Source: Pseudomonadota bacterium (GTDB taxonomy: Bacteria; Pseudomonadota; Gammaproteobacteria; Burkholderiales; Burkholderiaceae_C). From it: 38,760 nt of DNA. The translations under genes were made by a program, and so were the position numbers. Below the pieces are notes generated by a model that was not told where the DNA came from, made no database searches, and worked only from the letters and a program-made list of their open reading frames with translations. Numbering within the stretch: position 1 is the stretch's first letter; the number at the start of each line of letters is the position of its first letter. The stretch lies in NCBI GenBank assembly GCA_020161215.1, contig JAIUOM010000027.1:1-38760 (forward strand), in the 5' to 3' direction. This document shows, one piece after another, positions 2,286-11,554 of the stretch.

Positions 2286-3203
2286 ATGGAAATCGCCCTC
2301 GTCCTGGTCATCATCGCGGTGTTGTTCATCAGCCGCGCCGTCAAGGTCGTCCCGCAGCAAAACGCCTGGGTGGTCGAGCGCCTGGGCAAATACCACGCCT
2401 CGCTCTCCCCGGGCCTGAACTTCCTGGTGCCATTCGTCGATCGCGTGGCCTACAAGCACAGCCTGAAAGAGATCCCGCTCGACGTACCCAGCCAAGTCTG
2501 TATCACGCGCGACAACACCCAGCTGCAGGTGGACGGTATCCTGTACTTTCAGGTCACCGACCCGATGCGCGCCAGCTATGGCTCCAGCAACTACATCACC
2601 GCCATCACCCAACTGGCGCAGACCACGCTGCGCAGCGTGATTGGCAAGCTGGAGCTGGACAAGACCTTTGAAGAACGCGACATCATCAACGCCAAGGTGG
2701 TCGAGGCCATCGACGAAGCGGCGTTGAATTGGGGCGTGAAAGTGCTGCGCTACGAGATCAAGGACCTGACACCTCCGAACGAAATTCTGCACGCCATGCA
2801 GGCGCAGATCACGGCCGAACGGGAAAAACGGGCCGTGATCGCCACCTCGGAAGGCAAGCGCCAGGAGCAGATCAACCTGGCCGAAGGCATGAAGCAGGCC
2901 GCCATCGCCAAGTCAGAAGGCGAAAAGCAGGCCGCCATCAACACCGCCCAGGGTGAGGCCGCCGCCATTACCGAGGTGGCCAACGCCACCGCCCTGGCAT
3001 TGGCGCGCGTGGGCGCGGCCATCGGCCAACCCGGCGGCGAGCAGGCCGTGCAGCTGAAAGTCGCCGAACAGGCCGTGCACGCCTACGGCAGGCTGGCCCA
3101 GGAATCCAGCACCACGCTGGTGGTGCCCAGCAACATGACCGAGGTGGCCACGCTGATCAGTTCGGCCATGAAGATGGTGCAGGTACAAAAGAACGAAGCG
3201 TGA
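2286..3203 (+). CDS. SPFH/Band 7 (stomatin-like, QmcA-type) protein
   Basis: The 305-residue protein has an N-terminal membrane anchor (about residues 1-17), then the SPFH/prohibitin domain. VVPQQNAWVVERLGKY, the PGLNFLVPFVDRVAY stretch and the ALNWGVKVLRYEIKDL block are visible. A long charged, Ala/Glu-rich coiled coil follows (about 180-240, with repeated AEG and SEGEKQ units), then a short C-terminal region. Length and layout match bacterial QmcA/stomatin homologues that form oligomeric rings on the inner membrane and modulate membrane proteases such as FtsH. It is almost certainly co-transcribed with the NfeD-like gene. GGAGAA precedes the ATG. The gene is followed by tRNA-Ser. Confidence 0.9.
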   Translation: MEIALVLVIIAVLFISRAVKVVPQQNAWVVERLGKYHASLSPGLNFLVPFVDRVAYKHSLKEIPLDVPSQVCITRDNTQLQVDGILYFQVTDPMRASYGSSNYITAITQLAQTTLRSVIGKLELDKTFEERDIINAKVVEAIDEAALNWGVKVLRYEIKDLTPPNEILHAMQAQITAEREKRAVIATSEGKRQEQINLAEGMKQAAIAKSEGEKQAAINTAQGEAAAITEVANATALALARVGAAIGQPGGEQAVQLKVAEQAVHAYGRLAQESSTTLVVPSNMTEVATLISSAMKMVQVQKNEA

Positions 3204-3265
3204 GCCGCGCCCTACCGCGGTTGCCCAGAGATCCGTCCGCTCTCGCGCTACAATGCGCGACTCTC

Positions 3266-3356
<91 letters not shown>

Positions 3357-3361
3357 CACAT

Positions 3362-3396
3362 AAAACCCAAGTCATTTCGGTGACTTGGGTTTTTTC
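3362..3396 (+). terminator. Rho-independent terminator after tRNA-Ser
   Basis: A 13-bp perfect stem, AAAACCCAAGTCA (3362-3374) with TGACTTGGGTTTT (3381-3393), has a 6-nt loop and is followed by a T-run. It separates tRNA-Ser from the hydrogen-sensing cluster. The 127 bp from here to hoxA hold a small GTCTG-N5-CAGAC inverted repeat (3440-3454) of unknown meaning. Confidence 0.9.
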
Positions 3397-3523
3397 TTGC
3401 TGGGCTCACCTTGCGGACGACACTGCCCCATCGCGCCCGGTCTGTCTGTCAGACTGGCCGTTCAACCCTCACGCCGCTATCATCATAAATATTGCCTGAT
3501 TTTCTTACCCAGTTGCCCAAGCC

Positions 3524-4999
3524 GTGGCCCTTTCACGTGACCTGATTCTTGTCGTGGACGACGAGCCGCAGTCCCTGGACGCCATTCGGCGCACCTTGGA
3601 GGAGGATTTCGACGTGGCACTGGCGAGTTCCGCCGACGAGGCGCGGCGCTGTCTGCAGGCGCGGGAAGTCAGCGTGGTCCTGTGCGACCAGCGCATGCCG
3701 GAGCAGACCGGGGTGGAGTTTCTCAAGGAAGTGCGCCAGACTTGGCCCGATTGCGTGCGGATCATCGTCTCGGGCTACACCGACAGTCAGGACATCATCG
3801 AAGGGGTCAACGAGGCCGGGCTGTACCAGTACCTGCTCAAGCCCTGGATGCCGGACCATCTGCTCAACGTGGTGCGCGAGGCGGCACAAGCCCGGCGGTT
3901 GCAGACCGGCATCGCGCACCTGGACATGGAGGTGCGGCGTGCACCCTCGGCCTTGCGCGAGCGTCTGTCCCAGCGCCGAGAGCGGACCGCCACCGCTTTT
4001 GCCTTCGAGCAGATTCTGCGCGCCGAGGGCAGCCCCCTTGACGCGGTGTGCGCCCTGGCCTCGCGCATCGCCGTGCACAACCTCTCGGTGCTGCTGCTGG
4101 GCGAATCGGGCTCCGGCAAGGAGCTGATGGCGCGCGCCATCCACTACGCCAGCCCACGCTTGCAAGGCCCCTTCGTGGTGGAAAACTGCGCGGCGCTGGC
4201 CGACACCCTGCTCGAAAGCGAGTTGTTCGGCCACCGACGTGGCGCCTTCACCGGCGCTTATGACGATCATGTCGGCCTGTTCCAACGCGCCGATGGTGGC
4301 ACCATTTTCCTGGACGAGATCGGTGAAACCTCGCCCCTGTTCCAGGTCAAGTTGTTGCGCGTGCTGGAGGCGCGCGAAGTGCGCCCGGTGGGTTCCACAC
4401 GGGCGATTCAGGTCGACGTGCGTGTGATCTGTGCCACGCACCGCAATCTGGAGGCCGAGGTGCAAAGCGGCCGTTTCCGCGAAGACCTGTACTACCGCAT
4501 CGCCGAGTGCACGCTGCAGCTGCCCCCACTGCGCGAGCGCCTGGGCGACCTGGCGTTGATCGCCCAACGTCTGCTCGACGACGTGGCGCACGCCAACGGC
4601 AAGCCCGCCATGCGCTGGAGCGACGCGGCGCTGCGGTGTTTGCTGGCCTACCCCTGGCCGGGCAACATCCGAGAGCTGCGCAACGAGGTCGGCCGCGCCG
4701 TGGCCCTCAGCGACAGCCTGGTCATCGAGCCCGGAACCTTGTCGCCACGCACCTTGCAGGGCACGTTGGGCGCACCTCCAGCACCGGCCATGGCCCGCGG
4801 CGGGGAGGCACTGCAACTGCCCAGGACCGGCACGCTGCAGGAACGGCTGGACGCCATCGAGGCAGCGATCTTGAAGGAAACCCTGATCCGCCATCGCTGG
4901 AACAAAAGCCAGGCTGCGCTGGAACTGGGCGTCTCGCGCGTCGGCCTGCGTGCCAAGCTGCTGCGCTTCGGGTTGGAAACCAAAGAGGTGCCGACATGA
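3524..4999 (+). CDS. hoxA: HoxA/HupR-type sigma-54-dependent response regulator
   Basis: This 491-residue NtrC-family activator has a receiver domain (about residues 7-122) with phospho-acceptor Asp55 in VVLCDQRMP. An AAA+ domain follows with Walker A GESGSGKE (193-200), GAFTGA (240-245, the sigma-54 contact loop, intact) and Walker B IFLDE (261-265). A Fis-type helix-turn-helix lies near the C-terminus (about 463-485). In hydrogen-oxidising bacteria HoxA switches on hydrogenase operons and is active unphosphorylated; HoxJ phosphorylates and silences it when H2 is absent. The start is a GTG at 3524; no upstream in-frame ATG gives a better receiver start. The stop overlaps the hoxB start (ATGA), so the two genes are translationally coupled. 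Identity rests mainly on the hoxBC-hoxJ context plus the domain layout. Confidence 0.93.
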   Translation: MALSRDLILVVDDEPQSLDAIRRTLEEDFDVALASSADEARRCLQAREVSVVLCDQRMPEQTGVEFLKEVRQTWPDCVRIIVSGYTDSQDIIEGVNEAGLYQYLLKPWMPDHLLNVVREAAQARRLQTGIAHLDMEVRRAPSALRERLSQRRERTATAFAFEQILRAEGSPLDAVCALASRIAVHNLSVLLLGESGSGKELMARAIHYASPRLQGPFVVENCAALADTLLESELFGHRRGAFTGAYDDHVGLFQRADGGTIFLDEIGETSPLFQVKLLRVLEAREVRPVGSTRAIQVDVRVICATHRNLEAEVQSGRFREDLYYRIAECTLQLPPLRERLGDLALIAQRLLDDVAHANGKPAMRWSDAALRCLLAYPWPGNIRELRNEVGRAVALSDSLVIEPGTLSPRTLQGTLGAPPAPAMARGGEALQLPRTGTLQERLDAIEAAILKETLIRHRWNKSQAALELGVSRVGLRAKLLRFGLETKEVPT

Positions 5000-6003
5000 A
5001 CGTGTTGTGGATGCAGTCGGGCGGCTGTGGCGGTTGCACCATGTCGCTGCTGTGTGCCGACGCGCCGGACTTCGCGGCGCAGTTTTCCGCCGCCGGGCTC
5101 AGCTGGTTGTGGCACCCCTCGCTGTCGCCACAGTCGGGCGCCGAGGTCATCCGACTGCTGGAGCGCATTGACGCGGGCGAGCAGCCGCTGGACATTCTGT
5201 GCGTCGAAGGCGCGGTGCTGCGCGGCCCCAACCGCACGGGGCGCTTTCATCTGCTGGCCGGCACCCAGGTGCCCATGATGGATTGGCTGACCCGCCTGGC
5301 GCGCCGCGCACGCCATGTGGTGGCGGTGGGCAGTTGCGCGGCCTGGGGCGGCATCTCGGCCACCGGGGCCAACCTGACCCAGGCCTGCGGTCTGCAGTAC
5401 GAGGACACGCGCCCAGGGGGCCTGCTGGGGCCCGACTTCACCTCGGCCAGTGGGCTGCCCGTGGTCAACGTCGCCGGCTGCCCCACGCACCCTGGCTGGG
5501 TGATGGACACGCTGATGGCCCTGGCCCTCGACCAGCTGCACCGGATTGACCTGGACGAACTGGGCCGCCCACGCTTTTACGCCGACCAGTTGGTGCACCA
5601 TGGCTGCACGCGCAACGAGTTTTACGAATTCAAGGCCAGCGCCGAGAAGCCTTCCGACCTGGGCTGCATGATGGAGCACATGGGCTGCAAGGGCACGCAA
5701 GCACACGCCGACTGCAACACCCGCCTGTGGAATGGCGAGGGCTCGTGCACGCGCGGCGGCTTCGCCTGCATCAGTTGCACCGAACCGGGCTTTCAGGACC
5801 CAGGCCACGCCTACCACCAGACGCCCAAGCTGGCCGGTATTCCCATCGGCCTGCCCACCGACATGCCGAAAGCCTGGTTCGTGGCCCTGGCCTCGTTGTC
5901 CAAAAGCGCCACGCCGCGCCGCGTGCGCGAGAACGCCACCAGCGACCACCCCACCGTGGCACCCACCATCCGGCGCACCGGCTTGCGCCGCCCCTCCGAG
6001 TGA
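4996..6003 (+). CDS. hoxB: Regulatory (H2-sensing) [NiFe]-hydrogenase small subunit
   Basis: This 335-residue small subunit starts directly with MNVLWMQSGGCGGCT and has no Tat signal and no C-terminal membrane helix. Both absences are typical of cytoplasmic HupU/HoxB sensors. Cysteines for the proximal, medial and distal Fe-S clusters are visible: GCGGC, GSCAAWGG, AGCPTHP, HGCTRNEFYEF, and the C-terminal cluster GSCTRGGFACISC. With HoxC it binds H2 and signals to HoxJ rather than feeding respiration. Its ATG overlaps the hoxA stop, and its stop overlaps the hoxC GTG. An Arg/Thr-rich tail of about 35 residues follows the last cluster region and is poorly conserved in appearance. The alternative name is HupU. 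Confidence 0.94.
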   Translation: MNVLWMQSGGCGGCTMSLLCADAPDFAAQFSAAGLSWLWHPSLSPQSGAEVIRLLERIDAGEQPLDILCVEGAVLRGPNRTGRFHLLAGTQVPMMDWLTRLARRARHVVAVGSCAAWGGISATGANLTQACGLQYEDTRPGGLLGPDFTSASGLPVVNVAGCPTHPGWVMDTLMALALDQLHRIDLDELGRPRFYADQLVHHGCTRNEFYEFKASAEKPSDLGCMMEHMGCKGTQAHADCNTRLWNGEGSCTRGGFACISCTEPGFQDPGHAYHQTPKLAGIPIGLPTDMPKAWFVALASLSKSATPRRVRENATSDHPTVAPTIRRTGLRRPSE

Positions 6004-7526
6004 GCCCCTCCCCTCCTCCGCCCGCCGCCGCCCCCGACAGTCCGGCAGGGCGGCGCGTCATCGTCGGCCCGTTCAACCGGGTGGAAGGCGATCTGGAGGT
6101 GCGGCTCACCGTCGCCCAGGGCATGGTGGCCGCGGCCGAGGTCAACGCCACCATGTTCCGCGGCTTCGAAAGCATGCTGGTGGGGCGCCACCCGATGGAC
6201 GCGCTGACCATCGTGCCGCGCATCTGCGGTATTTGCTCGGTATCGCAGTCCATCGCCGCCGCCCGTGCGCTGGCCGATGCGGCGGGCATCGCGCCGCCGC
6301 CCAATGGGCAGCGCATGCACAACCTGATGATCGCCTGCGAGAACCTGGCCGACCACCTGACGCACTTCTACCTGTTCTTCATGCCCGATTTCGCACGGGC
6401 CTGCTACGCCCACCGCCCGTGGCACGCCGAGGCCAGAAAGCGCTACGCCGCCTTGGCCGAGCCCGAACCCGGGGCGCGCAGCGTGGCCGCCACCGCGGCG
6501 CGCGCCCGCTGGTTCGAACTGATGGGCTTGATGGGCGGCCGTTGGCCGCACACCGGCTCGCTGGTGCCCAGCGGCAGCACACGCGCCGTCACGGCGTCCG
6601 AACGCCTGCGCCTGTGGGCCAAGCTGCGCGAAATGCGCGGCTTCCTGGAGTCGCACACCTTTGGCGCCCCGCTGGAGACCGTGGCCGCGCTGTCCGACGC
6701 CACCGCGCTGCTGGCCTGGGCCGACGGCGATGCGCGGCGCGCGCAGAGCGACCTGGCGCTGTGGCTGGAAATTGCCCAGGACCTGACCCTTGAACGACTC
6801 GGTCGCGGCGCCAAGCAGTTGATGAGTTACGGGGCGTTTGCCGCGCCGTCCGGTTTTGGGTTCTCATCCGGTCTTTTCGACCTTGCCACGCAGGCCGTGA
6901 CACCGATCCCCCTGTCCGCCATCACCGAGGACGCGCGCTCGGCCTGGTTCGACAGCGCGACCGGTCCGCTGCACCCCAGCGTCGGCAGCACCGTGCCGGC
7001 ACCCGACAAACCCGGCGCCTACACCTGGAACAAGGCGCCGCGTCTGGACGGCCAGGTGCTCGAGGTCGGCGCGCTGGCCCGTCAAGCCGTGGACGGCCAC
7101 CCACTCGCGCGCGCCCTGCTGCAAGACGGCCCCGCCACGGTGTTCAGCCGGGTCGTCGCCCGTCTGCTGGAAACGGCACGGATTCTGCCCCTGATGGAGC
7201 GTTGGGTCGGTGCACTGGAGTTGGGCGCGCCCTTCGCCAAGCCGCTCCCCACTTTCGGCCGGGCGCATGGCGTGGGCCTGGCCGAGGCCGCGCGCGGCGC
7301 CCTGGGTCACTGGCTGTCCATCGAGGACGGCCGCATCAGCCATTACCAGATCATCGCACCCACCAGTTGGAACTTCTCGCCGCGCGACAGCCAGGGCAGC
7401 CCCGGCGCGCTGGAGTCCGCCCTGGTCGGCACGCCAGTGGACGAGCGGGCCAGCGACGACGCCCACGTGGCGGTGCAACACGTGGTGCGCTCCTTCGACC
7501 CCTGCATGGTCTGCACCGTGCACTGA
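6000..7526 (+). CDS. hoxC: Regulatory (H2-sensing) [NiFe]-hydrogenase large subunit
   Basis: The start is a GTG at 6000, overlapping the hoxB stop as GTGA, and gives 508 residues. A Pro/Ala-rich leader of about 20 residues precedes the conserved core. Active-site motifs are PFNRVEGDLEV, RICGICSVSQS (N-terminal CxxC) and DPCMVCTVH at the extreme C-terminus. The protein ends exactly at that His, so there is no peptide for a maturation endopeptidase to remove. This is the hallmark of HupV/HoxC sensors and separates them from energy-converting hydrogenases. The SVSQS after the first CxxC is also sensor-type. It carries the Ni-Fe(CN)2CO site; maturation (Hyp) genes are not in the window. The nikR gene follows 15 bp downstream. 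Confidence 0.95.
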   Translation: MSPSPPPPAAAPDSPAGRRVIVGPFNRVEGDLEVRLTVAQGMVAAAEVNATMFRGFESMLVGRHPMDALTIVPRICGICSVSQSIAAARALADAAGIAPPPNGQRMHNLMIACENLADHLTHFYLFFMPDFARACYAHRPWHAEARKRYAALAEPEPGARSVAATAARARWFELMGLMGGRWPHTGSLVPSGSTRAVTASERLRLWAKLREMRGFLESHTFGAPLETVAALSDATALLAWADGDARRAQSDLALWLEIAQDLTLERLGRGAKQLMSYGAFAAPSGFGFSSGLFDLATQAVTPIPLSAITEDARSAWFDSATGPLHPSVGSTVPAPDKPGAYTWNKAPRLDGQVLEVGALARQAVDGHPLARALLQDGPATVFSRVVARLLETARILPLMERWVGALELGAPFAKPLPTFGRAHGVGLAEAARGALGHWLSIEDGRISHYQIIAPTSWNFSPRDSQGSPGALESALVGTPVDERASDDAHVAVQHVVRSFDPCMVCTVH

Positions 7527-7541
7527 CCACCCTTTGCACCC

Positions 7542-7952
7542 ATGGAACGCCTGACGATCTCGCTCGACGACCCACTGGCCGCCAGCTTCGACGAATGGCT
7601 GGCCGGGCGCGGCTACACCAACCGGTCCGAGGCCATGCGCGATTTGATCCGCGCCGAGCTGGAACGCTCGCGTCAGCAGGAAGCGCCGCGCCGCCAGGGC
7701 GTGGGCGTGCTGTCCTACGTGTTCCACCACCGTTACCGCGAGCTGGGCGAGCGCATCGTCGGGCTGGAACACGCCTACCACGACACCATCGTGTCGTCGA
7801 TCCACGCCAACCTGGACGCCGAGCGCTCCATCGAGGCGGTGATCCTGCGCGGCGCCATGCGCGACGTGCGCCGCTTCTCCGACGCCGTGTGCGCCCACCG
7901 GGGCGTGCACCACGGTCAGCTCAATATCGTCAGCGCGCAAGACGAGCGCTGA
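7542..7952 (+). CDS. NikR-like ribbon-helix-helix regulator with altered nickel site
   Basis: The 136-residue protein aligns end to end with E. coli NikR (133 residues). The N-terminal ribbon-helix-helix (MERLTISLDD to about residue 42) keeps Arg3 and Thr5, the base-contacting strand residues of E. coli NikR. RGYTNRSEAMRDLIR and the ACT-like domain (GVGVLSYVFHH, RGAMRDVRRFSD, HRGVHHGQL) are also recognisable. Of the four square-planar nickel ligands (E. coli His76, His87, His89, Cys95), the equivalents here are His77, His88, Asn90 and Ser96, so two are lost. It lies between hoxC and hoxJ, 15 bp and 7 bp away, so it is part of the H2-sensing operon. A likely binding site precedes the next transcription unit. 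Its effector is uncertain: weak nickel binding, another metal, or a different ligand set such as His77, His80 and His88. Confidence 0.88.
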   Translation: MERLTISLDDPLAASFDEWLAGRGYTNRSEAMRDLIRAELERSRQQEAPRRQGVGVLSYVFHHRYRELGERIVGLEHAYHDTIVSSIHANLDAERSIEAVILRGAMRDVRRFSDAVCAHRGVHHGQLNIVSAQDER

Positions 7953-7959
7953 ACGCGCC

Positions 7960-9342
7960 GTGAACCCCAACACGCCGCCGCCGCCCGCTCCGCGCCCGCG
8001 CGCCTCCGCGCTGCCCGAGCACATCACGCACGAGCAGCTCACCCACATGGACGAATCCGTGTGGGTGGACGTGATCCAGCAGATGGACGCGGTGTACGCG
8101 CGTCTGGTCGAGGACGAGACCGCGCTGGAAGAGCGCAACACCCAGCTGGAAACCTCGCAGCAGTTCATCTACAGCCTGCTGTCGTCAATGACCGACGTGC
8201 TGGTGGCCTGCCGTGAGGACGGCGCCATCGAGCAGACCAACATGGCCCTGTGCCGCCTGGTCGGCCGCACCGACGACGAACTGCGCGACCAGCCCATCGA
8301 CACCCTGCTGGCCGACGCCGAAAGCGCCGAACGTCTGCGCAACTGCATCGCCTCGCCCGAGGCGCAGCGTGGCGGTGCCTCGGCCGAGGTGAACATGCGC
8401 GACGGCCAGGGCCGCAAGGTGCCGGTGGACCTGAACTGCACGCTGCGGCGCAGCGCCAGCGGTCAGGTGGTCGGTCACGTGCTGGTGGGTCGCCCGATGG
8501 GCGAGCTCAAGCGCGCTTACCACGAACTGCGCGAGGCGCACGAAGCGCTCAAGCGCACGCAAGCGCAGCTGCTGCACTCGGAAAAGCTGGCCTCGTTGGG
8601 GCGTCTGGTGGCGGGCGTCGCGCATGAGCTGAACAACCCGATCAGCTTCGTGCTCGGCAACGTGCATGCGCTCAAGCGCTACGCCGAGCGCCTGGAGCGC
8701 TACCTGAACGCCGTGCACGCGCTGCCGCTCACGCCCGAGGTGCAGGCGCTGCGGCGCGAGCTGCGTGTCGACCACCTGCTGGCCGATCTGCCCTCGCTGA
8801 TGGGCGGCACCATGGAGGGCGCGCAGCGCACCACCGACATCGTCAGTGGCCTGAAGCGCTTCTCGGCCGTGGATCGCGAGGAATACACCCGGTTCGACCT
8901 GTGCGTGGTGATCGAACGGGCCATCCATTGGGTGCAAAAAGGCACCGCGCCGCGCTTTCACATCGCTTTCGCGCCCGATGGACCGGCCGTGATCGTCGGC
9001 CATCCCGGCCAGATGCTGCAGGTGGCGATGAACCTGATCCAGAACGCCTACGACGCCGCCGCGCCCGAAGCCGCGCCACCACCGCGCCTGGATATCCGGC
9101 TGCTGCGCGAGACCGGCGGCCGCCACCTGACGGTCACCTTCGCCGACAACGGCAGCGGCATCGCGCCCGAGCACCTGGGCAGCATCTTCGATCCGTTTTT
9201 CACCACCAAGAGCGCCGGCAAGGGCACCGGCCTAGGCCTGTCGATCAGCTACGGCATCGTCGAGCGGCACGGCGGCACGCTGACGGGCGCCAACCGGCCC
9301 GAGGGCGGCGCCTGCTTCACGCTGCGACTCCCCCTCGCCTGA
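7960..9342 (+). CDS. hoxJ: HoxJ/HupT-type PAS sensor histidine kinase
   Basis: This 460-residue soluble kinase has a Pro-rich N-terminus, then a PAS domain (about residues 68-185) and a helical linker. The phospho-acceptor His222 lies in [14 protein letters not shown] HATPase domain follows with N-box [16 protein letters not shown], and [11 protein letters not shown]. No transmembrane helix is seen, consistent with its partner being the cytoplasmic regulatory hydrogenase. In Cupriavidus and Rhodobacter this kinase phosphorylates HoxA/HupR without H2, and H2-bound HoxBC blocks it. The glycine boxes are intact, so it should be an active kinase. The GTG start at 7960 lies 7 bp after nikR, which implies translational coupling. 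The gene ends 142 bp before the TonB receptor start. Confidence 0.92.
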
Positions 9343-9383
9343 ACGCGGCCTGGCACGGGCGTGCGACAACCATGGGCAGGGGA

Positions 9384-9412
9384 TTGCCTTATTTTATGAA
9401 TATTTTTATATT
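9384..9412 (+). promoter_or_regulatory. Candidate sigma-70 promoter of the TonB-receptor gene
   Basis: TTGCCT (9384-9389) and TATATT (9407-9412) are separated by 17 bp, in an AT-rich pocket of otherwise GC-rich DNA. The predicted start would be near 9419, about 65 nt before the ATG at 9485. The promoter overlaps the inverted repeat at 9395-9419. Confidence 0.6.
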
Positions 9413-9419
9413 GTTCATA
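9395..9419. promoter_or_regulatory. Putative NikR operator (TATGAA-N13-TTCATA)
   Basis: A perfect 6-bp inverted repeat, TATGAA (9395-9400) and TTCATA (9414-9419), carries a C after the right arm, so that arm reads TCATAC. The established E. coli NikR site is GTATGA-N16-TCATAC; here the equivalent is TTATGA-N15-TCATAC. It covers the spacer and -10 box of the promoter at 9384-9412, the position expected for repression. The adjacent NikR-like protein keeps Arg3 and Thr5 of E. coli NikR. The spacer is one base shorter than in E. coli, which is the main reservation. Confidence 0.65.
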
Positions 9420-9484
9420 CTCACGAATCAAACACCGACGTCGAGTTGACACGCACGATCCCTAAGAGTTCGATACCCACCCAC

Positions 9485-11554
9485 ATGCAGCGCGCCGTGC
9501 GCCACGCACGCGCATGGTCGGGCGTTTGGCTGCTTGGCGCTTGTTCGGGCTGGGTTTTGGCGCAGCCGGTACCCGACCATCTGTCCGAGGTGACCGTGCG
9601 TGCGCACTACGACAACGCCGTGGGCAGCACGGACGCGGCGTCACAAGGCCGGGTGCAAGCCGGCCTGCTGGCCGACCGACCTCTGCTCCGGCCGAGCGAC
9701 GCGCTGGAAGCCGTGCCCGGCCTCGTCGTCACTCAGCACTCGGGCGATGGAAAGGCCAACCAATACTTCCTGCGCGGCTTCAACCTGGACCACGGCACCG
9801 ATTTCGCCACCACCGTCAACGGCGTGCCGGTCAACATGCCCACACACGCGCATGGCCAGGGCTACAGCGACCTCAATTTCCTGATCCCCGAGCTGGTGGA
9901 CCACATCGACTACCGCAAGGGGCCGTACTTCGCCCCCTATGGCGACTTTGCCAGCGCCGGGGCGGCCGACATCGCCTACGCCACGCGCCTTGAACGGCCC
10001 TTTGCCAGCCTGACGCTGGGTGCGCACAACTTTCGGCGCGCGCTGCTCGCCGGCTCGGGAGAGCGCTCGGACGGCACGCGCTGGCTGGGTGGACTGGAGC
10101 TGGCGGGCAACGACGGCCCGTGGACCGTGCCGGAGCGCTTGCGCAAGCTCAATGGCGTGCTCAACCTGTCGGGCGGCAGCGCACGCGAGGGTTGGACCGC
10201 CACCGCCATGGGCTACGACGCCCATTGGACGGCCACCGACCAGGTACCCGAGCGCCTGATCGGCCAAGCCTGGCAAGGCAGGCGCTTTGGTCGGTTCGAC
10301 GCTGTGGACCTCACCGATGGCGGGCGCAGCGCGCGCTACAGCCTGTCCGGCGAATGGCACCGGAGCACCGGCAGCACAACCGACCGCCTGGCGGTCTGGG
10401 CGCTGCACAGCCGGCTGACGCTGTTCTCCAACTTCACCTACTTCACCCAAGGTCCACAAGGCGATCAGTTCTCACAGCGGGAGTCGCGCAATGCGCTGGG
10501 CTTTTCGGGCTCACGCAGCTGGGCGCACCGCATGGCCGGTGCGGATGCGCAAACCACTCTGGGCGTGCAGCTGCGCCACGACCAAGTGCAATTGGGCCTG
10601 CTGCGCAGCACCGCCCGCGCGATCACCGACACGGTGCGCGATGACCGCGTGGGGCAGACGCAGGCGGGCCTGTACGCCGAGAACGCCGCTCAATGGACGC
10701 CCTGGCTGCGCACCGTGCTGGGCCTGCGCGCCGACACGCTGATCGCCCGCGTGCGCAGCCACGTGCTGACCGCCAACTCGGGGCACAGCGACGACCTCAC
10801 GCTCTCGCCCAAGGCCAGCCTGGTGCTCGAGCCCTGGGCCCACACCGAGTTTTTCGTCAACGCCGGACGCGGCTTTCACAGCAACGACGCACGCGGCACG
10901 ACCATTCGTGTCGATCCGACAGCGCCCACCCGCGCGGCCGAGCAGGTGCCCGGATTGGTGCCCAACCTGGGTTACGAGCTGGGCCTGCGCGGCCAATGGT
11001 TACCGGGGCTGCAGACCTCACTCGCGCTGTGGTGGCTGCGTTCGCGCTCCGAGTTGGTCTACGTGGGCGATGCCGGTACGACCGAGCCCGGCCAAGCCAG
11101 CCGCCGCCGCGGCGTCGAATGGAACACGCGCTACACCCCCTGGCGCGGCGTGGTGCTGGACGCCGACCTGGCGTGGACGCACGCGCGCTTTGCCGATGGC
11201 TCGCACATCGACAACGCCGTCGATCGCGTGAGCGTGCTCTCGGTCACGTTGGGCCAGGGGCCGGGCTGGTCTGCCACGCTGGGTTGGCGTTACATCGGCT
11301 CGGCGACGCTCACCGGCGACAACAGCCAGCGCTCGCGCCCCAGCCGCACCGCCAACCTGCGCATCGGGTATGCGCCGCAAGGCGCACGCTGGTCGCTGAC
11401 TTTGGATGTGTTCAACCTGTTCAACCGCCGCAACGACGACATCAGCTACTGGTACGCGTCGCGCCTGCCGGGCGAGGCCTCCGACGTCGAAGGCCTGCAC
11501 GTGCACCCCGCAGAACCGCGCACCGCGCGCGTGGTCTGGCGCCTCGCGCTCTGA
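9485..11554 (+). CDS. TonB-dependent outer-membrane receptor, possibly for nickel chelates
   Basis: I start at the ATG at 9485 rather than the upstream TTG because it gives a normal signal peptide (Arg/His-rich n-region, WLLGACSGWVLA core, cleavage near LAQ-PV). The 689-residue protein has a TonB-box-like HLSEVTVRA after the signal, then a plug domain with RPSDALEAVPGLVV, QYFLRGFNLDHGTDF and the VNGVPVNMPTHAHGQGYSD segment. A 22-strand-type beta barrel follows with alternating aromatic residues, and the chain ends VVWRLAL. Such receptors take up scarce metal chelates or cofactors using TonB energy. The substrate cannot be read from sequence. Its position after hoxJ and the NikR-like operator suggest nickel. 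A His-containing plug loop (THAHGQGY) may be relevant. Confidence 0.88.
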   Translation: MQRAVRHARAWSGVWLLGACSGWVLAQPVPDHLSEVTVRAHYDNAVGSTDAASQGRVQAGLLADRPLLRPSDALEAVPGLVVTQHSGDGKANQYFLRGFNLDHGTDFATTVNGVPVNMPTHAHGQGYSDLNFLIPELVDHIDYRKGPYFAPYGDFASAGAADIAYATRLERPFASLTLGAHNFRRALLAGSGERSDGTRWLGGLELAGNDGPWTVPERLRKLNGVLNLSGGSAREGWTATAMGYDAHWTATDQVPERLIGQAWQGRRFGRFDAVDLTDGGRSARYSLSGEWHRSTGSTTDRLAVWALHSRLTLFSNFTYFTQGPQGDQFSQRESRNALGFSGSRSWAHRMAGADAQTTLGVQLRHDQVQLGLLRSTARAITDTVRDDRVGQTQAGLYAENAAQWTPWLRTVLGLRADTLIARVRSHVLTANSGHSDDLTLSPKASLVLEPWAHTEFFVNAGRGFHSNDARGTTIRVDPTAPTRAAEQVPGLVPNLGYELGLRGQWLPGLQTSLALWWLRSRSELVYVGDAGTTEPGQASRRRGVEWNTRYTPWRGVVLDADLAWTHARFADGSHIDNAVDRVSVLSVTLGQGPGWSATLGWRYIGSATLTGDNSQRSRPSRTANLRIGYAPQGARWSLTLDVFNLFNRRNDDISYWYASRLPGEASDVEGLHVHPAEPRTARVVWRLAL

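Follow-up and report, generated by a model that had tools for sequence, protein, structure and literature searches.

NikR is a textbook example of a regulator whose metal response is decided by coordination number and by the choice of ligands; the available text of PMC7055735 ties that response to a square-planar His3-Cys site, describes the nickel requirement of known NikRs as strong and gives the Escherichia coli operator as GTATGA-N16-TCATAC. Excerpts of three further papers state that NikR regulation was predicted for NiCoT and hydrogenase (PMC2667541), that a NikR homologue beside a zinc transporter was proposed to be zinc-responsive (PMC3087415) and that, in one analysis, most mutants of Helicobacter pylori NikR (HpNikR) bound DNA more tightly as apo-proteins than the apo-wild type (PMC9860126). 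In the open-access literature and the few subscription papers that were covered, we found no description of a NikR without its ligands or of a NikR within a hoxBC-hoxJ operon. Here we describe a NikR homologue from a Burkholderiaceae_C genome that combines the two. The window is the whole stretch of DNA that was analysed (38,760 nucleotides).

Results

A NikR homologue lies within a hydrogen-sensor operon

The locus reads hoxA, hoxB, hoxC, nikR, hoxJ and then a gene for a TonB-dependent receptor, beyond which a CbbR-like LysR regulator is encoded on the opposite strand and a Calvin-cycle cluster lies further on (Table 1). The first gene we take to be hoxA from gene order and general knowledge. 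Regulatory hydrogenases are marked by a HoxC with both nickel-binding cysteine motifs and no C-terminal extension, and by a PAS kinase with an H-box. We found each of these hallmarks of a regulatory [NiFe] hydrogenase operon (hoxA-hoxB-hoxC-hoxJ): HoxC contains RICGIC and ends in DPCMVCTVH with nothing after the last histidine, and HoxJ is a PAS kinase with the H-box AHELNNP. Upstream of hoxA, a strong stem-loop (3362-3393; 14 pairs) is followed by a T-rich stretch and resembles a terminator. As originally predicted, nikR is separated from hoxC by 15 bp (7527-7541) and from hoxJ by 7 bp (7953-7959).

Table 1. Features of the hydrogen-sensor locus (window coordinates)
Feature	Position	Strand	Basis
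hoxA, NtrC-type response regulator	3524..4999	+	Family by NCBIfam
hoxB, regulatory hydrogenase small subunit	4996..6003	+	NCBIfam
hoxC, regulatory hydrogenase large subunit (putative start codon)	6030..7526	+	NCBIfam; motifs
NikR homologue with altered nickel site (HHNS), 136 aa	7542..7952	+	ORF, Pfam/NCBIfam, phmmer, AlphaFold2 model
Ribbon-helix-helix (RHH) DNA-binding domain	7542..7676	+	Pfam; 17/17 conserved columns kept
NikR_C metal-binding domain	7701..7928	+	2/4 ligands and 7/24 conserved non-ligand columns changed
His77 codon (E. coli His76), kept	7770..7772	+	Alignment
His88 codon (E. coli His87), kept	7803..7805	+	Alignment
AAC codon, Asn90 replacing E. coli His89	7809..7811	+	Alignment
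TCC codon, Ser96 replacing E. coli Cys95	7827..7829	+	Alignment
hoxJ, PAS histidine kinase	7960..9342	+	Pfam; AHELNNP box
Sigma-70-like promoter TTGCCT-17-TATATT; second hexamer inside operator	9384..9412	+	Consensus match only
Predicted NikR operator TTATGA-N15-TCATAC, 1/12 mismatches	9394..9420	.	De novo repeat from relatives
TonB-dependent receptor, presumed nickel-uptake target; start possibly ATG 9485	9446..11554	+	Pfam, NCBIfam

The host genome (4.52 Mb, 250 contigs, 98.13% complete) encodes two NiFe large subunits above cut-off, at this locus and on contig C233, with a third weak match below it. Its one HupE adjoins the second hydrogenase (contig C233), and a profile search of the genome returned no NicO permease. 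We also considered that a second, normal NikR might free this copy, and set this aside on finding one NikR_C match in the genome, a count that could miss a copy at 98.13% completeness.

Two of four nickel ligands are replaced in an intact protein

The reading frame is uninterrupted from its ATG (7542) to the end of its stop codon (7952) and encodes 136 residues. The protein exceeded the Pfam cut-offs for RHH_1 (36.9 bits; cut-off 20.5) and NikR_C (76.4 bits; cut-off 22), and among NCBIfam models those of NF002815 (NikR; 166.5 bits; cut-off 83) and NF003381 (119.3 bits; cut-off 105), and scored below the cut-off of TIGR02793 (nikR; 127.5 bits; cut-off 175.45). Its best solved relative by phmmer is E. 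coli NikR (1q5v; E=8.2e-31). Across the ligand region the two align without a gap, and this alignment bears out the predicted ligand swap: E. coli His76, His87, His89 and Cys95 correspond to His77, His88, Asn90 and Ser96, giving the ligand set HHNS in place of HHHC. The DNA-contacting Arg3 and Thr5, claimed to be retained, are both present, as is Arg28. Glu30 and Asp34 (E. coli numbers), which we take to be putative K+ site residues, are kept.

The claim that the overall fold is retained held up in an AlphaFold2 model (mean pLDDT 90.2, pTM 0.69), which superposed on the C-terminal domain of nickel-bound E. coli NikR (1q5y_B) at 0.9 A over 82 columns. Given this superposition, a shifted alignment that would place other residues at the ligand positions is unlikely. 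The model is of a monomer, whereas in the NikR tetramer one ligand is contributed by the adjacent subunit. Relative to the consensus of the 128 HHHC NikRs described below, the protein also carries C52G, A54G, Y60F, H63R, L81T, H92A and A112S (E. coli numbering), and His62, His76, His79 and His87 (E. coli numbers) are still present. We rejected two base errors or a misalignment in view of these further nearby changes, the gap-free alignment and the 0.9 A superposition. The HHNS NikR is a real and unusual variant of the NikR family.

Other hox-linked NikRs keep all four ligands

Relatives were collected with PF08753, which matched in 94 of 399 genomes of the order, and with the HHNS NikR as query, which matched in 69 of 399 genomes of the family. 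Within 29 genomes of the genus, the same query found only itself convincingly, the four other hits being weak and partial (E 1e-4 to 6e-4). Fetched relative loci carry L-numbers, and 155 NikR rows were read from their neighbourhoods. Our 141-row set leaves out fragments (L062, L068, L175_1, L204, L207), two proteins whose metal domains have unusual ends (L199, HHHA; L209, QHHC) and seven members of a deep clade (L206, L208, L210, L211, L215, L216, L218); its 141 NikRs represent 136 distinct sequences, five pairs being the same or identical proteins. A further 50 NikRs were chosen partly for low scores, and 3 of them repeat earlier ones. About 40 further order or family hits fall outside these row sets or are covered by short loci alone.

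The ligand sets of the 141 NikRs were HHHC (128), HRRC (4), HRQC (2), HHRC (2) and, once each, HHHR, HHQR, HRHC, HQPC and HHNS. HHNS was thus found in this protein (1/141) and in none of the 50 further NikRs (0/50), counts that speak against Asn/Ser as a frequent variant. Among the 50, Asn at position 89 occurs in three proteins alone, all linked to type III glutamine synthetase (GS-III; L319-L321), and Ser at position 95 in none. A C-terminal tail with at least three histidines, present in 127 of 141 NikRs, is missing from the HHNS NikR.

The original prediction had asked whether Asn/Ser marks a clade tied to hoxBC-hoxJ loci. Of the 155 rows, 22 have hoxB, hoxC or hoxJ no more than 6 kb from nikR, namely 21 HHHC proteins and the HHNS NikR, and the idea of such a clade fails on the 21 of 21 other hox-linked copies that keep HHHC. 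The strict order hoxC-nikR-hoxJ, with both neighbours within ~1 kb, recurs at L141, L142, L182, L183 and L187 and, with hoxJ inverted, at L129. A NikR near hox genes is therefore not peculiar to the host genome. Approaching from the hydrogenase, HoxC is present in 71 of 399 family genomes; nikR was absent from the fetched flanks of the 29 best HoxC relatives among these, and from those of L257, the sole other genus member with a close HoxC, which argues against hoxC-nikR-hoxJ as a fixed arrangement.

Change is concentrated in the metal domain

In a quick tree of 126 rows with the ligand columns removed (few columns, many open forks), the HHNS NikR fell in a starred clade of 13 rows together with the hox-linked L100, L101, L106 and L107, all HHHC. 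Its end branch measures 1.16, against 0-0.84 for the other 12 rows. By this placement it would branch among HHHC proteins, at an exact place that is unsure.

Columns were called conserved where kept in at least 85% of the 128 HHHC NikRs. The HHNS NikR is changed at 0/17 of these in the RHH domain and at 7/24 non-ligand columns of the metal domain (Fisher p=0.029), compared with means of 0.54 (RHH) and 1.41 (metal domain) changes in HHHC proteins. Four distant HHHC NikRs reach 7-10 metal-domain changes, alongside 2-4 RHH changes. Metal-domain identity to nine hox-linked orthologues is 0.41-0.59, below the 0.63-0.76 of 34 pairs among those nine; the RHH ranges overlap (0.56-0.73 and 0.62-0.80 for the same comparisons), and HoxC identity is 0.53-0.59 between this locus and the nine orthologous loci and 0.54-0.71 among the latter. 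Metal-domain codons are still coding-like (GC by codon position 0.73/0.39/0.95). Change in the HHNS NikR is concentrated in the metal domain.

A predicted NikR operator lies between hoxJ and the TonB receptor gene

A blind inverted-repeat search of relatives, upstream of nikR, tonB, hoxA and hoxB, ranked GTATGA-N15-TCATAC first with 17 exact cases (next pattern, 4). Sites with at most one mismatch numbered 78 in the 155 stretches (2.06 Mb; some stretches repeat one another), with spacings of 15 (72 sites), 14 (2) and 16 (4). This operator in relatives, and a near-copy of it between hoxJ and the TonB receptor gene, are newly found here. The near-copy, TTATGAATATTTTTATATTGTTCATAC, matches 11 of 12 half-site bases and places a GTATGA/TCATAC palindrome upstream of the presumed nickel-uptake gene. 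No other site in the host genome comes within one mismatch; chance alone would give ~1.4 such sites genome-wide and 3.6e-5 in the hoxJ-TonB gap (base composition), so only its position is telling and uniqueness is not evidence in itself. A match as good arose in 5 of 20,000 dinucleotide shuffles of the gap. With at most two mismatches, the genome has 16 sites, compared with 5 for a control pattern.

The predicted operator lies 55 bp past the end of the hoxJ match. Among the 15 other hox-linked loci that have a hoxJ match, 9 show an operator 82-144 bp behind hoxJ. In the loci inspected, the gene after the hoxJ-linked operator is a NiCoT permease (Pfam NicO in 3/3: L184, L189, L141), followed by TonB; at the HHNS locus there is no NiCoT permease and the TonB receptor gene comes directly after the operator. 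The module of hoxJ, NikR operator and nickel-uptake genes (NiCoT and TonB where inspected) was seen at L141, L150, L180, L184, L185, L187 and L189, and may couple nickel supply to the hydrogen-sensor locus. Only one sigma-70-like promoter was detected in the interval 3150-9520, and its second hexamer falls within the operator, which suggests repression; the same simple scan seldom returns this arrangement in relatives (10 of 144 oriented operator hits). The original prediction was of a NikR that keeps operator recognition while its metal site changes; the metal site is indeed altered, and recognition is probably kept, judging from the 17 unchanged RHH columns and the operator itself. We suggest that the operator lifts the HHNS NikR above a lone odd sequence.

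Ligands appear to have been lost in several NikR groups

The altered NikRs of the 141-row set form eight groups, which, with open tree forks, would correspond to up to eight independent losses. Besides HHNS, they are HHQR (L111), HRQC (L116, L119), HHHR (L104), HHRC (L173, L176), HRHC (L195), HQPC (L205) and HRRC (L061, L063, L069, L070). All 17 conserved RHH columns are kept in L104, L111, L116, L119, L173, L176 and L195; 2 are changed in the HRRC rows and 3 in L205. An operator stands between nikR and a NiCoT or TonB gene at L195 (0 mismatches), L111 (1, spacing 16), L104 (2) and L116 and L119 (2 each), the last two with both half-sites changed symmetrically to GTAAGA-N15-TCTTAC, and at L173 an operator (2 mismatches) lies 43 bp upstream of nikR. 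No nearby operator was found in L176, L205 or the HRRC group. A two-mismatch site is the best in its stretch in 31 of 128 HHHC rows, so position and symmetry carry the weight for those operators.

Rows with an altered position 89 mostly have position 63 altered as well (10 of 11, against 5 of 130 others), a contrast inflated by related rows, and each of the eight groups has Arg or Lys at one or more of positions 62, 63, 87, 89 and 95. No hox genes were found near the other ligand-altered NikRs in the fetched loci. The genes of the HHQR and HRQC NikRs (L111, L116, L119) are immediately followed by an operator and a NiCoT permease. The HRRC NikRs come from records labelled Beijerinckiaceae, Rhizobium and Rhizobiales MAGs, and also show His62 to Tyr and His63 to Asp/Glu. 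Next to an intact nikR, L175 (G340:C1) carries a further NikR_C frame that is truncated (YHHC, 77 aa); an operator and a TonB gene are also close by.

A deep NikR_C clade lacks the canonical site (YHHT, FHHM, SNNI, YNNT, HHHT and others) and comprises L206, L208, L210, L211, L215, L216, L218, L316, L319-L322, L324, L328-L332 and L336-L338. In 20 of its 21 loci we found type III glutamine synthetase, DUF1989 proteins, creatininase or a biotin-carboxylase-type protein, singly or together; type III glutamine synthetase occurs in 0 of 166 HHHC loci. These proteins probably regulate the use of nitrogen compounds, perhaps guanidine- or urea-like; our search of the open-access literature for NikR linked with guanidine found nothing on topic among the papers listed. 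L336 and L330 pass NCBIfam NikR equivalog cut-offs, so deep-clade proteins are likely to be annotated as nickel regulators. Seven of its members were included in the tree, where a branch of length 3.5 separates them from the rest. We rejected membership of the HHNS NikR, which groups with HHHC NikRs and has hox genes and TonB as neighbours.

Discussion

The square-planar His3-Cys nickel site cannot form once a His and the Cys have given way to Asn and Ser. The reading we favour, at a probability of roughly 0.4, is that the HHNS NikR is a conditional repressor that still binds its operator under a weak or retuned metal trigger. That DNA-binding domain, operator and receptor have been conserved together suggests that the regulator can still switch. 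If the protein were always silent or always bound, nothing would keep the three under joint selection; DNA binding would thus be conditional, on the assumption that selection has acted on the genes ever since the ligands were lost. In such a scheme, the HHNS NikR would repress the TonB receptor by covering its promoter. The trigger might be a weak site of other geometry formed by the remaining His77 and His88, perhaps with His62/His63 (given also as 61/62) and water, and only high nickel, or another divalent metal, would switch the receptor off. A changed metal site fits a host genome with no NiCoT permease and with HupE beside hydrogenase genes. We count against this reading that it concerns one protein in one genome with no HHNS sister found in the relatives, and that the four distant HHHC NikRs also have at least seven metal-domain changes.

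The same losses could instead mark a decaying relic: loss of the NiCoT permease would have made nickel sensing dispensable, and drift would have yet to reach the DNA-binding domain and the operator. The long end branch (1.16 against 0-0.84), the losses at several metal-site positions and of the histidine tail, the lack of NicO in the host genome and the regulatory hydrogenase of L257, in the same genus and without nikR in its fetched flanks, all speak for decay. We nevertheless consider it rather unlikely: the gene has no stop or frameshift, 0/17 conserved RHH columns are changed, the metal domain retains its codon bias and the operator persists at 9394-9420.

A third possibility is a repressor independent of metal, in which side-chain interactions replace the metal and the operator is occupied according to how much protein is made, and hence to expression of the hydrogen-sensor operon that contains nikR. 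Consistent with this are the loss of two ligands while RHH domain and operator were kept, the retained Glu30 and Asp34, the Arg or Lys that entered at 62, 63, 87, 89 or 95 in all eight altered groups, and, from the excerpt on HpNikR mutants, the point that apo affinity can shift (PMC9860126). Arg is no proof, however, since one base change is enough to turn a His or a Cys into Arg; the known NikRs covered in the available text of PMC7055735 strongly need nickel; and the hoxC-nikR-hoxJ position is common to HHHC loci, so it did not arrive with the ligand loss. We regard metal independence as improbable. We give still less credence to its extension to further NikRs, by which ligand loss would be a recurring rewiring of NikR (in up to eight groups, most of them with an unchanged DNA-binding domain and a retained nickel-uptake operator), a side-chain cation replacing nickel and holding the DNA-binding form so that protein amount sets occupancy; if true, the amount of HHNS NikR would be tied to the hydrogen-sensor operon.

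Least probable is another input, whether a metal other than nickel (Zn, Co, Cu) bound at a His-rich, Cys-free site or the signal from the hydrogenase machinery once proposed, which found no backing beyond gene order: His62, His76, His79 and His87 remain, a homologue by a zinc transporter was proposed to respond to zinc (PMC3087415, excerpt) and the deep clade without a nickel site in non-nickel operons implies that the fold can serve other inputs, yet the kept target is the TonB receptor of a nickel module and we found no physical link between the HHNS NikR and hydrogenase proteins.

The HHNS NikR, for which we retain the weak or retuned trigger as the preferred reading, is a natural experiment on whether a NikR can act without its square-planar site. 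It also bears on annotation: the HHNS NikR, L111, L116 and L061 all pass a NikR equivalog cut-off, and since ligand-altered proteins do so, the label 'nickel-responsive regulator NikR' needs a ligand check.

Among described proteins, Helicobacter pylori NikR shares the fold of the HHNS NikR and, by PDB titles, has the canonical site. It uses His74/His75 (E. coli 62/63) in accessory sites. E. coli NikR (1q5v, 2hza, 2hzv) is a colinear two-domain protein of the same fold with 42-44% identity to the HHNS NikR, and Arg3, Thr5 and Arg28 are shared; two of its four ligands (His76, His87, His89, Cys95) are replaced here by Asn90 and Ser96, and the equivalents of His92 and Tyr60 are changed. Its target is nikABCDE, whereas the presumed target here is the TonB receptor, and in the available text of PMC7055735 its operator has nearly the same half-sites at a spacing of 16 rather than 15. 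The other ligand-altered NikRs have likewise lost one or two ligands, to different residues, but keep the histidine tail that the HHNS NikR lacks. The hox-linked HHHC NikRs of other Burkholderiales (L100, L101, L106, L107, L141, L182, L187 and others) share the hoxBC/hoxJ gene order, operator and TonB target. Unlike the HHNS NikR, they keep HHHC and, where the 3' end is covered, the His-rich tail, and several of their loci carry between operator and TonB the NiCoT permease that is absent at the HHNS locus.
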